Shown here piece after piece: positions 4,393 through 9,544 of a stretch of DNA of 32,082 nt; the stretch's first letter is position 1; the number at the start of each line of letters is the position of its first letter. Source of the stretch: Nitrospinota bacterium (GTDB taxonomy: Bacteria; Nitrospinota_A; UBA7883; JACRGQ01); assembly GCA_016194375.1 (NCBI GenBank), contig JACQBU010000077.1, forward strand, positions 1 to 32,082, given 5' to 3'. The notes beneath the pieces are model-generated. The model was given only the letters and a program-made list of their open reading frames with translations. It did no database searches and had not been told where the DNA came from. The position numbers and the translations under genes were made by a program.

Positions 4393-5124
4393 TTGCTGAC
4401 GCTAAAAGCACAGGGACTTTCAAAATCATACAAGGGCCGTAAAGTCGTCGACAATGTTGATGTTTTGGTCAACAAAGGGGAGGTCGTGGGCCTTCTGGGC
4501 CCGAACGGAGCCGGAAAGACCACGACTTTTTTCATGATTGTGGGGCTTGCCAAGCCGGAGGGGGGTTCCGTTTACCTCGACGATGAGGAGATAACCTCCC
4601 TGCCGTTGTATAGGCGCGCCAACCTGGGGGTGGGGTACCTCCCGCAGGAGTCGTCGGTTTTCAGGAAGCTGACGGTCATGGAAAACATAATGGCGGTCTT
4701 GGAGATGCGCCCGCTTAGCCGGCTTGAGATGGAGACGCGGGCGAAGACCCTGCTCGAAGACCTCAACATCTTTCATCTGGCGGACGCGAAGGCCTCCGCC
4801 CTTTCGGGCGGCGAGCGCAGGCGGCTCGAGATAAGCCGGATTCTGGCCTTGTCCCCGTCGTTCCTACTGCTGGACGAGCCCTTTGCCGGGATAGACCCCA
4901 TAGCGGTGATGGAGATACAGTCCATCATCTCCGACCTAAAGGGCAGGGGGATCGGGGTGTTGATAACGGACCACAACGTGCGCGAAACGCTCGAGATAGT
5001 CGACCGCGCCTACATAATAAGCGAGGGGCGGATAATCGAGAGCGGCGCGCCCGACTGGATAGTGTCGTCGGAGAAGGCCCGGACGTTCTATCTGGGCAAG
5101 AATTTCTACATGAAGCAGGGGTAG
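4393..5124 (+). CDS. lptB: LPS export ABC transporter ATP-binding protein LptB
   Basis: This is the ATPase that powers lipopolysaccharide extraction from the inner membrane with LptF and LptG. All ABC ATPase motifs are present: Walker A GPNGAGKTT (residues ~36-44), Q-loop region with YLPQESSVF, signature LSGGERRRLEIS (~138), Walker B LLLDEPFAGIDP (~160) and the H-loop ITDHNVRETL. The LSGGERRR and FAGIDP variants are specific to LptB among ABC ATPases. Translation appears to start at TTG (4393); no in-frame ATG lies close upstream. rpoN follows after 3 bases. The only LptF/G-family permease in the window is far away, at 18033. Confidence 0.95.
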   Translation: MLTLKAQGLSKSYKGRKVVDNVDVLVNKGEVVGLLGPNGAGKTTTFFMIVGLAKPEGGSVYLDDEEITSLPLYRRANLGVGYLPQESSVFRKLTVMENIMAVLEMRPLSRLEMETRAKTLLEDLNIFHLADAKASALSGGERRRLEISRILALSPSFLLLDEPFAGIDPIAVMEIQSIISDLKGRGIGVLITDHNVRETLEIVDRAYIISEGRIIESGAPDWIVSSEKARTFYLGKNFYMKQG

Positions 5125-5127
5125 GCC

Positions 5128-6564
5128 ATGGGCATGGACATGAAGCTTTCGATGAAGCTTTCCCAAAGGCTCGTCATGACCCCGATGCTCCAGCAGGCCA
5201 TCAAACTGCTCCCGATGACTCGCATGGAGCTCGTCACCGCCATTCGCGCGGAGCTTGAGGAGAACCCGTTCCTCGAGGAGGCCGCCGCCGAAGAGGAGGA
5301 AAAGGAGGCCGAAACCCCGGAGCCGGAGGAGCCGCCGGGATTCGAGCAGGAGGCCGCCGCCGCGCCCGCCGAGGAAACAAAGGCGAAGGAGGAGATGGAT
5401 TGGGACTCCTATTTTCAGGAGGAGGCCTACGAGCGGGGAACGGGGGGCGACTTCAAGGAAAGACCGTCGCTGGAGAACACCCTTAGGAGCAACGAGTCCC
5501 TGCACGACCACCTTTTGTGGCAGTTGAACGCGGGGGTGGCCGACCAGCGCCTCAACGAGATAGGGCAGATAATCGTCTCCGACGTCGACGACGACGGCTA
5601 CTACAAGACCGACCCCGCCGAAACCGCCGAGCAGGCCGGCGCGACGGTGGAGGAGGTCAGGCAAGTGCTCGAGATAATAAAGGGGTTCGACCCCACCGGC
5701 GTGGGCGCGTCCGACGTGAGGGAATGCCTTAGGTTGCAGGCCGCCGCGCTCGAACCGGACGACCCCGTGATACGCGACGTCATAGAAGGCCATCTGGACG
5801 ACCTTCGCGAGAACAACTACCCCAAGATAGCCAAGGCGCTGGGGGTGGACGTGGAGCGTCTTCAGGAGGCCGTGGAGTTCATCAGGGGCTTGGATCCGGC
5901 GCCGGGAAAGGCCTTCAACACCGAGAGCGCGCACTACGTCCTCCCGGACATCTACCTGGTGAAGATGGACGACGACTACCAGGTTCTGCTTAACGACGAC
6001 GGGGTGCCGAAGCTCAAGATAAACCCGTACTATAGAAACATCCTCAAGGCGAAGGAGGGGGTGCAGGAATCCACAAAGGAGTTCGTCGAGAACAAGTTCA
6101 GGGCCGCGGAGTGGCTGGTCAAGAGCATAGAGCAGAGGCGGCAGACGATGCTCAAGGTCGGAAGGAGCCTCGTGAAGTTTCAGCGCGGTTTTTTGGACCA
6201 CGGCATCACGCAACTTAAGCCGCTCGTGCTCAAGGACGTGGCGGAGGACATCGGGATGCACGAGTCCACCATAAGCCGCGTCACCCGCAACAAATACATA
6301 CACACGCCCCAGGGGATATACGAGCTCAAGTTTTTTTTCCACGGCGGGGTGAACTCGTACCTCGGAAGCATGATATCTTCCGTTCGCGTGAAGGACATGA
6401 TAAAAAGGATAGTGACGGACGAGGACCCCAAGAAACCGGTCACCGACGACCACATAGTCAGGATGCTGGAGACGCAGGACGTGAGGATAGCCAGGCGCAC
6501 CGTGACCAAATACCGCAAGGAGCTCAAGGTGCCGCCCGCCTCCAAGCGCAGGCGCAATTATTAA
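5128..6564 (+). CDS. rpoN: RNA polymerase sigma-54 factor RpoN
   Basis: This sigma factor recognises -24/-12 promoters and needs AAA+ activators to open DNA. Region I (residues 1-50) has the usual MKLSQRLVMTPMLQQAIKLL opening, which contacts activator and -12 DNA. A strongly acidic region II covers ~50-105. The core-binding domain follows, with GVGASDVRECL and GLDPAPGKAF. The helix-turn-helix is around DVAEDIGMHESTISRVTRNK, and the RpoN box ARRTVTKYRKEL at ~455-466 reads the -24 element. Length (478 aa) is typical. The gene sits between lptB and hpf, the conserved order. No response regulator or AAA+ activator is encoded in this window. Confidence 0.97.
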   Translation: MGMDMKLSMKLSQRLVMTPMLQQAIKLLPMTRMELVTAIRAELEENPFLEEAAAEEEEKEAETPEPEEPPGFEQEAAAAPAEETKAKEEMDWDSYFQEEAYERGTGGDFKERPSLENTLRSNESLHDHLLWQLNAGVADQRLNEIGQIIVSDVDDDGYYKTDPAETAEQAGATVEEVRQVLEIIKGFDPTGVGASDVRECLRLQAAALEPDDPVIRDVIEGHLDDLRENNYPKIAKALGVDVERLQEAVEFIRGLDPAPGKAFNTESAHYVLPDIYLVKMDDDYQVLLNDDGVPKLKINPYYRNILKAKEGVQESTKEFVENKFRAAEWLVKSIEQRRQTMLKVGRSLVKFQRGFLDHGITQLKPLVLKDVAEDIGMHESTISRVTRNKYIHTPQGIYELKFFFHGGVNSYLGSMISSVRVKDMIKRIVTDEDPKKPVTDDHIVRMLETQDVRIARRTVTKYRKELKVPPASKRRRNY

Positions 6565-6585: not shown

Positions 6586-6933
6586 GTGCAAGTACATATA
6601 CATGGAAAAAAAGTCGAGGTAACGCCGGCGCTTAAGGACTACGCGTACCAAAAGGCGCTTGTGGTCAAGAAGTTCATCGACCTGAACATCCGGGTGAACG
6701 TCACCCTTTCCGTGGACAAGTTTCGCCAGATAGCCGAGGTCACCGTCTCGGGAAACGGCGTGGACCTTCACGGTAAGGAGGAATCGGAGGACTTGTACGC
6801 CTCGATAGACATGGTGATGGACAAGATCGTCGCCCAGGCCAAGAAGTTCAAGGAGAAACAAAAGAGCCACCCCCACGTGCGCGGTTCCGCGCTGGCCGTG
6901 GACACCTGCGCGACGGACGAGGCGGTCGAGTGA
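6586..6933 (+). CDS. hpf: Ribosome hibernation promoting factor, short form (HPF/YfiA)
   Basis: HPF binds the 30S decoding and mRNA channel and drives ribosomes into inactive dimers during starvation. The 115-residue sequence starts MQVHIHGKKVEVTPALKDYA and continues through VTVSGNGVDLHGKEESEDLYASIDMVMDKI, the beta-alpha-beta-beta-beta-alpha fold of the family. It lacks the C-terminal dimerisation domain of long HPF, so it belongs to the short class. The start is GTG at 6586, 21 bases after the rpoN stop. The usual downstream neighbours hprK and rapZ are missing; an EIIA gene follows instead. Confidence 0.93.
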   Translation: MQVHIHGKKVEVTPALKDYAYQKALVVKKFIDLNIRVNVTLSVDKFRQIAEVTVSGNGVDLHGKEESEDLYASIDMVMDKIVAQAKKFKEKQKSHPHVRGSALAVDTCATDEAVE

Positions 6934-6992: not shown

Positions 6993-7412
6993 GTGATAGG
7001 AGTGGTTATTTGCGCCCACGGCAACCTGGCGAACGAGCTTCTTGCCACGGCGAATTTCATCACGGGCAACGCCGGCCGCATGACGGCCGTGGCGATGGAC
7101 CACAACGTCGATCCCGCGTCAGCGCGCGGCGTCATCAAGGACGCCATCCTCAACGCCGACGAGGGAAGCGGCGTGCTGGTGCTGACGGACATGTACGGCG
7201 GCACGCCGTCCAACATCTGCATTTCCCTTCAGGACGAGCTTGGCATCGAGATAATCGCGGGAGTGAACCTCCCGATGCTCCTCAAGGCCGCCTCCGTTCA
7301 AAAAAACAGCGACCTTCAGACCATGTCCGCGAAGGTGAGGGACTACGGCAAGGAGAACATCATCCTTGCCTCCGATTTTCTGAGGAAGAAAAATGCCGCT
7401 GGCGAAGGTTAG
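6993..7412 (+). CDS. PTS EIIA component, mannose/fructose (EIIA-Man) family
   Basis: This 139-residue domain accepts phosphate from HPr on a histidine. His9 in VVICAHGNLA is the expected phosphorylation site, and LTDMYGGTPSN is the second conserved segment of the EIIA-Man fold. The protein is a single domain with no fused EIIB, and no EIIB/C/D permease genes are in the window. A regulatory rather than transport role is therefore likely, as proposed for the incomplete PTS of many Deltaproteobacteria. The start is GTG at 6993 behind a strong GGAGGAGG (6980-6987). The 3' end overlaps the HPr gene by 20 bases. Confidence 0.9.
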   Translation: MIGVVICAHGNLANELLATANFITGNAGRMTAVAMDHNVDPASARGVIKDAILNADEGSGVLVLTDMYGGTPSNICISLQDELGIEIIAGVNLPMLLKAASVQKNSDLQTMSAKVRDYGKENIILASDFLRKKNAAGEG

Positions 7413-7659
7413 CGTTGACGACCCTCTGGGGATGCATTTGCGCATGGCGTTCTCCCTGGCGGACCTTTGCTCGAGGCGCAAATGCGCCGTGAGGGTCGGG
7501 TTCGGCGGCCTATGGGCGGACGGTAAGGAGCTGACCGACGTCCTGGGGCTCGGAGTCGAGTCCGGAGAGACCATCACGCTTGAAACAAGCGGTCCCGGGG
7601 CCGAGGACGCGCTGGAGGAGCTAAAGAAGTTCTTCGCGCCCCCCGCCAAAACCCCCTAG
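7393..7659 (+). CDS. HPr-like phosphocarrier protein with Glu at position 46
   Basis: HPr relays phosphate from EI to EIIA proteins. The 88-residue product aligns without gaps to Bacillus subtilis HPr as I recall it. Gly13, His15 and Arg17 of the active centre are present (LGMHLRMA), with Leu16 and Met18 replacing the common Ala and Pro. At the regulatory site the sequence DGKELTDVLGLG puts Glu at residue 46, where HPr kinase would phosphorylate Ser. Together with the lack of hprK in this cluster, this suggests a permanently S46-phosphomimetic or simply unregulated HPr. It overlaps the EIIA gene by 20 bases. A gap of 97 bases separates it from ptsI. Confidence 0.88.
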   Translation: MPLAKVSVDDPLGMHLRMAFSLADLCSRRKCAVRVGFGGLWADGKELTDVLGLGVESGETITLETSGPGAEDALEELKKFFAPPAKTP

Positions 7660-7756: not shown

Positions 7757-9544
7757 GTGAAAATATTTAAGGGAATCCTGGCGTCCCCCGGCATAGCGAT
7801 AGGCAAGGCGTACATCCTAAACCGGTTCCACGTAGCCGTGGTCTGCAGGAACATCGGCAAGGACGAGGCGTTTTTGGAGGTTGACCGCCTGAACGCCGCG
7901 GTCGAGGCGGTGCGAAAAGAGATGATAAAGTCGGCCCGGGAAAGCGTCGGCAACATCCCCGCCAACATGCGGGACATCTTCAACCCGCACATACAGATCC
8001 TCGAGGACCCCACGCTCATCGGGCACGCGAGGCAGATGGTTGAAAAAAAGCTGGTCAACGCCGAGTACGCCCTAAAGGAGACCTTCGACAAGTTTGTCCA
8101 GCGGTTCGAGAACATCCGCGACGGTTATTTCAAGGACCGTCTCCACGAAATCGAGCTTGTGGTGAACAAGCTCATAAGGGAGCTGATGGGCGCGGGCGTC
8201 GACGACGGCCTCTCAAAACTTAACGAGCCGGCGGTAATCTTCGCGCACGACCTCACGCCGTTCGACACGGCCCAGATGTCCGCAAAATACGTGCTGGGCT
8301 TCGTGACGGAGGCCGGCGGCAAGACCTCGCACACGGGCATCATCGCCTCCTCCCTCAACATCCCGGCCGTGGTCGGCGTGCCGAAAATACTCCGGTCGGT
8401 GGAGACCGGCGACAACGTCATAGTCGACGCCATCACCGGAAACGTCGTCATCAAGCCCACGGACCAGCAGTTTCAGTCGTACAATCAAAAACGCCAGCAC
8501 CTGCTGTTCCTCGCCAAAAAGATGGAGAAGGAGGCCGGCAAGGAGGCCAGGACCAGGGACGGCGTCCTTTTCAGGCTCACCGCGAACATCGAGTCCCCCT
8601 CGGACGTCCCCACCGCCGCCTCGCACGGAGCCGAGGGAATCGGGCTGTACAGGACGGAGTTTCTTTTTGTGCGGGGCAACAGGCTCCCCGACGAGGAGGA
8701 GCAGTTCAACGACTATAAGAAAGTGGCGCAACTCGTGGCGCCGTACGAGGCGATCATCCGGACGCTCGACCTCGGCGGGGACAAGATGCCCGGCCACATG
8801 GTCGAGGAGCCCGAGGCCAACCCCGCCCTCGGCCTCAGGGCCATACGGTACTGCCTCGACCAGCCGGCGGTCTTCAGGACGCAGTTGAGGAGCATCCTAC
8901 GCGCGTCCCATTACGGAAGGTTGCGCGTCATGTTCCCGATGGTGAGCAGTCTCGAGGAGTTCCTAAGGGCCAAGGCCATGCTCGAAAGGATGAAAAGGGA
9001 GCTGGACAAGGACGGCGTGCCGTACGACAAGAACCTGAAGGTCGGAATGATGGTGGAGACCCCGTCGGCCGCGCTGATGGTGACGCAGTTCGCCGTGAAC
9101 GAGGTGGACTTCTTCTCCGTGGGGACGAACGACCTCATCCAATACCTCCTGGCGATAGACAGGACGAACCAGAGCGTGGCGAACCTGTTCGAGCCATTGA
9201 ACCCCGCCGTCATCCGCCTCCTTTGGAACATAATCCAGTCGGCGAACAGGTACAAGGTGCCCGTGAGCGTGTGCGGCAAGATGAGCGCCGACCCCGTGTA
9301 CGCCTACCTCCTCATCGGGATGGGGGACATAGAAAACCTTTCCATGGATTCGAACTCGATACCGAAGCTGAAGGGGTTTTTGCGCGACGTCTCCGCCGAG
9401 GAGGCCAGAAAACACGTCCTGAAGGTGATGGAGTTCGACCGGGTGAGGGACACAAAAAAATATCTGACAAAAAACGTGACCCCGATGTTCTCCGAAGGGA
9501 TGTTCTCCGAGCTTATGGCGGAAGACGCCTCGGGTGACGCCTGA
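7757..9544 (+). CDS. ptsI: Phosphoenolpyruvate-protein phosphotransferase (PTS enzyme I)
   Basis: Enzyme I transfers phosphate from phosphoenolpyruvate to HPr. The N-terminal domain opens with FKGILASPGIAIGKAY; the phosphorylated histidine is His192 in GGKTSHTGIIA. The PEP-binding TIM barrel carries GIGLYRTEFLF, LDLGGDKMPGHM, the substrate-site DFFSVGTNDLIQYLLAIDR, and Cys506 in VSVCGKMSADP (more often CGEMAGDP). At 595 residues it is a plain EI without an N-terminal GAF domain, unlike PtsP of the nitrogen PTS. The start is GTG at 7757 with no clear ribosome-binding site. murJ overlaps its 3' end by 11 bases. Confidence 0.95.
   Translation: MKIFKGILASPGIAIGKAYILNRFHVAVVCRNIGKDEAFLEVDRLNAAVEAVRKEMIKSARESVGNIPANMRDIFNPHIQILEDPTLIGHARQMVEKKLVNAEYALKETFDKFVQRFENIRDGYFKDRLHEIELVVNKLIRELMGAGVDDGLSKLNEPAVIFAHDLTPFDTAQMSAKYVLGFVTEAGGKTSHTGIIASSLNIPAVVGVPKILRSVETGDNVIVDAITGNVVIKPTDQQFQSYNQKRQHLLFLAKKMEKEAGKEARTRDGVLFRLTANIESPSDVPTAASHGAEGIGLYRTEFLFVRGNRLPDEEEQFNDYKKVAQLVAPYEAIIRTLDLGGDKMPGHMVEEPEANPALGLRAIRYCLDQPAVFRTQLRSILRASHYGRLRVMFPMVSSLEEFLRAKAMLERMKRELDKDGVPYDKNLKVGMMVETPSAALMVTQFAVNEVDFFSVGTNDLIQYLLAIDRTNQSVANLFEPLNPAVIRLLWNIIQSANRYKVPVSVCGKMSADPVYAYLLIGMGDIENLSMDSNSIPKLKGFLRDVSAEEARKHVLKVMEFDRVRDTKKYLTKNVTPMFSEGMFSELMAEDASGDA

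Follow-up and report, generated by a model that had tools for sequence, protein, structure and literature searches.

The HPr encoded in a phosphotransferase (PTS) gene cluster of a Nitrospinota bacterium has glutamate in place of the regulatory Ser46, and no hprK gene was found over cut-off in the same genome. On comparison of sequences and a model, the cluster probably encodes a kinase-free EI-HPr-EIIA regulatory relay, in which the acid would be a constrained helix cap and probably not a signal mimic. Phosphate would pass from PEP to EI, to His15 of HPr and on to EIIA-Man, and probably also to EIIA-Ntr proteins encoded elsewhere; in a relay without serine control, its flow would be set by PEP and EI alone. 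According to PMC6916182, what phosphorylation of HPr-Ser46 does in Gram-negative bacteria is poorly understood, and our literature search found no paper on HPr in Nitrospina. A phylum that has an EIIA-Man relay and has lost both kinase and serine, with acid at 46 in one family and base in another, offers a natural mutant series at this residue. The role of its charge in the regulatory PTS thus becomes directly testable with native protein pairs.

The PTS cluster and its HPr

The window, by which we mean the whole stretch of 32,082 nucleotides analyzed (contig JACQBU010000077.1 of assembly GCA_016194375.1), has the gene order rpoN-hpf-EIIA-Man-HPr-EI (Table 1). The lptB-like name of the ATPase upstream is our presumption from its adjacency to rpoN. 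Translation of the HPr frame gives 88 amino acids, and the protein scores over the cut-offs of both HPr profiles, PF00381 (cut-off 23) and TIGR01003 (48.4 bits, cut-off 47.9). A phmmer alignment to the Bacillus-type HPr 1rzr_T is gapless over residues 10–79; His15 and Arg17 coincide, Glu46 falls on Ser46, and Pro18 is replaced by Met. The top fold matches of the AlphaFold model are HPr crystal structures (Z 16.5). Helix B spans residues 47–51 in this model, which makes residue 46 its N-cap. Profile scores, fold and alignment thus bear out the earlier note on this DNA, which had described a genuine HPr with His15, Arg17 and Glu for Ser46. It was also right that the cluster lacks hprK, since the interval from the end of hpf to the start of EI holds EIIA-Man and HPr. 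Enzyme I has the His189-type phosphohistidine, and no IIB, IIC or IID was seen in the window cluster; the clustering of EI, HPr and EIIA-Man is that of a regulatory EI-HPr-EIIA relay.

Table 1. Genes of the window cluster and the codons of HPr residues 45 and 46
Feature	Position	Strand	Evidence or remark
ABC transporter ATPase, lptB-like	4393..5124	+	PF00005 116.6 bits
rpoN, sigma-54	5128..6564	+	PF00309, PF04963, PF04552
hpf, hibernation factor / sigma-54 modulation protein (S30AE family)	6586..6933	+	PF02482 79 bits
EIIA-Man, regulatory PTS IIA	6993..7412	+	PF03610 72.5 bits; overlaps HPr start by 20 bases
HPr (ptsH); H15, R17, M18, E46	7393..7659	+	PF00381 62.7 bits; gapless alignment to Bacillus HPr; model pLDDT 93.8
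HPr codons AAG GAG (K45-E46)	7525-7530	+	E46 = GAG at 7528-7530, codon 1 at 7393
Enzyme I (ptsI)	7757..9544	+	PF05524, PF00391, PF02896; TIGR01417 571 bits; H aligned to E. coli 189

The window HPr resembles Firmicutes HPr (PtsH), the partner of HprK/P, in fold (Z 15–16.5), His15 and Arg17, but differs from it in having Glu for Ser46 and Met for Pro18, and in belonging to a genome where hprK was not found. Pro18 is retained in only 2 of 20 Nitrospinota HPrs. With the laboratory S46D proteins (1sph and 1opd; Z 15.6 and 16.3), the window HPr shares the backbone and an acid at 46; here, however, the acid is natural, is Glu rather than Asp, and faces an EI with no acidic partner at position 84. 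The Gram-negative regulatory PTS of Brucella and Xanthomonas comprises EI, HPr/NPr, EIIA-Man, EIIA-Ntr and HprK, as portrayed in PMC2937029 and PMC6916182. Shared with it are the EIIA-Man, HPr and EI cluster near rpoN-hpf and EIIA-Ntr in the genome; in contrast to those systems, the window's genome is without a detected hprK, has replaced Ser46 and has ptsN outside the locus.

Loci of relatives that have hprK run rpoN-hpf-ptsN-hprK-EIIA-Man-HPr-EI (e.g., L043, L044, L047, L052, L053, L075, L102 and L115), which is the ancestral type of order in related phyla and is retained in Nitrospinota minus hprK; all 21 loci outside Nitrospinota in which EIIA-Man was detected upstream of HPr-EI belong to hprK-positive genomes. 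In the window's own genus, ptsN is gone from the locus, and EIIA-Ntr-type proteins are encoded on contigs C101 and C63 of the genome. The direct succession of hpf and EIIA, which had been read as the mark of a missing hprK, is therefore real but reflects loss of ptsN from the locus as well. Within Nitrospinota, EIIA-Man lies directly 5' of HPr in 20/20 cases; EI is in the same stretch in 19 and about 4 kb on, on the same contig, in the twentieth. In G002, a congeneric sister species (L014:1-1480), HPr is followed by a response regulator of the NarL type and one more frame, with EI about 4 kb beyond.

Distribution of hprK and Ser46

The draft genome to which the window belongs (1.91 Mb; 94% complete) was compared within a sample of 24 Nitrospinota genomes, nearly all of them drafts. 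A search with PF07475 (HprK_C) gave nothing at E ≤ 0.001 in the window's genome, and neither PF07475 nor TIGR00679 (full-length HprK) had a match over cut-off in any of the 24. Both models left the control genome, B. subtilis, which has the gene, undetected, so single hprK genes may be missed. The same searches scored over cut-off in 33 of 72 named genomes (16/41 and 17/31). A separate HprK profile, made from 12 hprK-positive genomes and run on 71 cluster loci, detected the gene in 17 of 33 hprK-positive flanks and in none of 38 hprK-negative ones. A draft gap as the sole cause was ruled out by the lack of hprK in 24/24 genomes. The kinase reported missing from the cluster is thus missing genome-wide and across the phylum sample with both models and, as far as drafts tell, the loss is real and phylum-wide. 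Of the two features of an HPr under HprK/P control, the window's genome has Glu46 instead of Ser46 and no hprK over cut-off.

Sub-threshold HprK_C matches were considered as hprK candidates and set aside: two of them, of ~360–390 amino acids, score 492 and 506 bits with TIGR04355, HprK-related kinase B. This kinase occurs in some Nitrospinota, though not in the window's genome, and at L035 and L036 (506 and 492 bits) it adjoins an ATP-grasp gene and another conserved gene. The weak HprK_C match of the window's own genome (E 0.0079) is a 603-amino-acid protein, discussed below.

Outside Nitrospinota, 80 named loci were chosen as nearest relatives and form a biased sample, in which HPr beside EI was detectable in 71 (in L095 the start is cut off, residue 46 still being readable). 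The nine others are L042 and the loci L045, L058, L066, L068, L070, L080, L085 and L109; hprK was tested in 72 genomes, with L042 included and the other eight left out. Residue 46 of the 71 HPrs is Ser in 65, Asn in 5 and Asp in 1. Ser46 was found in all 33 hprK-positive genomes, and the 38 hprK-negative ones divide into 32 Ser, 5 Asn and 1 Asp; Fisher values are 0.027 outside Nitrospinota and 5.9e-7 with Nitrospinota included, both ignoring kinship. The kinase therefore implies serine, whereas its absence does not imply loss of serine: kinase loss permits the loss of Ser46 and does not force it. The proposed co-occurrence of Glu/Asp46 with hprK loss accordingly holds in part; hprK-less Nitrospinota have no Ser46 and hprK-positive genomes have nothing else, but 32/38 hprK-less clusters elsewhere keep the serine. 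Free variation at 46 regardless of hprK, which would have spoken against a link, is seen among hprK-less genomes only.

The charge at residue 46

Of the 24 Nitrospinota genomes, 20 encode a small HPr. Its residue 46 is E in seven, D in five, R in three, K in two, and Q, H and L in one each; none has Ser. All ten HPrs of the window's own family (f1) are acidic, and the idea that Glu46 is unique to the window's genome was ruled out, as acid is common to its relatives. Sister families of the same class have K, R, H, Q or L in 8 of the 20 HPrs, and all retain EIIA, HPr and EI. In family f6, Lys replaces the normally invariant Arg17 in three of six HPrs (L009, L011 and L021).

On the EI tree, Nitrospinota form one clade (SH-aLRT 100). 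Acidic 46 is found in f1 and, on the clade's other side, in the f3 and f4 branches; Q and L are in f2, and K, R and H in f6. An acidic ancestor with later changes would be the simplest account on this tree, and parsimony leaves the order of acid gain and hprK loss unfixed. We suppose that both hprK and the control through Ser46 had disappeared by the base of Nitrospinota, that serine was replaced by an acid capping helix B and kept by selection in f1, and that sister families later exchanged the acid for a basic or neutral residue.

For f1, the tree was set by hand on the basis of the EI tree, L014 being positioned according to its genus and L015 on our own judgement; on it, column 46 switched between E and D three times and stayed in its class throughout. 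At least three changes were counted in 51 HPr columns of f1, of which only six kept their class, the other five being hydrophobic. From GAA, GAG, GAC and GAT, a fraction of 0.14–0.29 of non-synonymous single-base steps stays acidic, so that three of three corresponds to ~0.003–0.02. Such a run is unlikely under neutrality, which suggests that the charge is constrained; to judge from this pattern of exchanges, the acidic charge at 46 is held by selection in f1.

Two genomes have EI and no small HPr: G001 and Nitrospinaceae bacterium UBA7883 (L042; Nitrospinota according to NCBI), whose match to a large HPr-domain protein, described below, has contig coordinates identical to those in G023, one of the 24. 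The latter has 289 bases without an open frame between EIIA-Man and EI (L042:6682-6970), and its small HPr appears to have been lost while EI and EIIA stayed.

Acidic residue 46 is not confined to Nitrospinota. In the phylum of G069, whose locus L094 is a Desulfobacterales record, 13 of 395 genomes matched a DNA pattern written for acid-46 HPrs, and the reversed control pattern gave zero matches; the figure covers acid at 46 alone and is not a measure of enrichment. Since the pattern recovered 8 distinct HPrs of the 13 known (the acidic Nitrospinota HPrs and that of L094), 13/395 is a lower bound. HPr adjoins EI in all 12 acid-46 neighborhoods other than that of G069 itself. No hprK was found in these 12, where the flanks were searched, or in G069, where the whole genome was. 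Acid at 46 thus arose more than once, and its convergent appearance in a second phylum speaks for a functional charge over mere helix capping.

This convergence and the f1 pattern (acid in ten of ten, with E/D exchange only) are what might be expected if E/D46 were a fixed phosphomimic. Such a residue would permanently copy HPr(Ser-P), damp transfer from EI and bind an ancestral reader, the kinase having been lost as the on-state became constitutive. In the laboratory, the usual mimic is S46D (1sph, 1opd), and E. coli HPr S46D binds MtlR more weakly, according to passages of PMC6763467. The missing hprK in the second-phylum neighborhoods and in G069 fits as well. However, this group has no known HPr(Ser-P) reader, and eight of 20 Nitrospinota HPrs keep the relay with K, R, H, Q or L. 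We therefore regard the phosphomimic as unlikely, an opinion strengthened by the EI surroundings described below. Similarly doubtful is its wider form, in which HprK losers would repeatedly have hard-wired a negative charge at 46, near the Nitrospinota base and in separate lineages of the second phylum, with HPr(Ser-P) as a required constant state that has a reader; the repeated origin of acid at 46 is its best support.

Enzyme I, drift and a second HPr domain

In the E. coli complex, EI Glu84 pairs with HPr Ser46 and with Lys45/Lys49, according to passages of PMC3724859. The corresponding surroundings, read here from the alignment and not from a complex structure, have Pro83 and T, S, A, I or L at 84 in 18/18 readable Nitrospinota rows (E. 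coli numbering). Position 84 is likewise non-acidic in EIs of Ser46 genomes in other phyla. The contact known to be repulsive is thus missing, repulsion of a mimic by EI is not expected, and the slower transfer that the earlier note had carried over from other bacteria is not simply transferable from B. subtilis.

A compensating change in EI was also sought. When EIN columns were scanned for charge in relation to HPr residue 46, many clade-bound differences emerged, from which we drew no inference. Nearly every Nitrospinota EI is basic at positions 114 and 119 (E. coli), irrespective of the charge at HPr46; EIs from elsewhere are neutral or acidic there, although Lys also occupies 119 in three EIs that go with an Asn46 HPr. 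Neither position is among the interface residues listed in the passages of PMC3724859.

The earlier note had gone on to suggest a relay that lost its kinase and locked one state. Much of its basis stands: the kinase is gone, Ser46 is found in none of the 20 HPrs, and the f1 acid seems to be under selection. What has to be given up is a relay that needs a locked negative state. The non-acidic EI 84 and K, R or H at 46 in f6 argue against locked HPr(Ser-P) as a necessary state, and the other sister families with Q or L, as well as the hprK-less clusters elsewhere with Ser46, speak against it too. A locked relay is possible and not the likeliest reading; in f1, some partner may still read the charge. 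Because EI is without the acidic repelling contact and relatives with Lys or Arg keep the relay, we judge that Glu46 would answer mainly to a local structural or charge need of this family.

Pure drift, in which position 46 was freed after hprK loss and Glu is meaningless, is quite improbable. Seven different letters over the 20 phylum HPrs, and N or D in 6/38 hprK-less clusters elsewhere, are what drift would produce. In f1, however, the acid stayed within its class, unlike most columns (the ~0.003–0.02 above), and the serine kept in 32/38 indicates that the position is not generally free.

A Ser46-bearing HPr domain does exist in the window's genome, in a protein of 462 amino acids (L002:170-1558, contig C106) that has it at the C terminus. 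Such a paralogue together with hprK elsewhere would have counted against the earlier proposal; the paralogue was found, and hprK was not found in the genome. The protein occurs in 24/24 Nitrospinota, with H15, R17, P18 and the S46-equivalent in all, and its N-terminal ~350 amino acids matched no Pfam or NCBIfam model. The 603-amino-acid protein (L040:415-2226, contig C100) is a PEPCK/HprK-type P-loop protein with GDSGAGKSE, FDDMG and AKGTTDEKGL..FANPFGA. It is highly conserved, is found in 16/24 Nitrospinota genomes and scores under every curated cut-off, those for HprK included (13.8 bits against 33.3, and 13 against 240). That serine control has moved, with another HprK/PEPCK-type kinase acting on the S46-equivalent of the large protein and not on small HPr, would suit the constancy of that domain and the kinase-like motifs, but is most improbable: the 603-residue protein matches both PEPCK (15.3 bits) and HprK below cut-off, reaches only 59% probability against true HprK in profile comparison, is missing in 8/24 genomes where the large protein is present, and is encoded on a different contig from it in the window's genome.

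Outside Nitrospinota, the 462-amino-acid protein was found in 4 of 35 genomes, a count that leaves out G064 (G023 again) and two short HPrs (E ~1e-4); one of the four has N at the S46-equivalent. Within the phylum, neither an EI match nor a small HPr was found in G009 (98% complete) or G016 (87%), yet both have kept the large protein, which is therefore not EI-dependent there.
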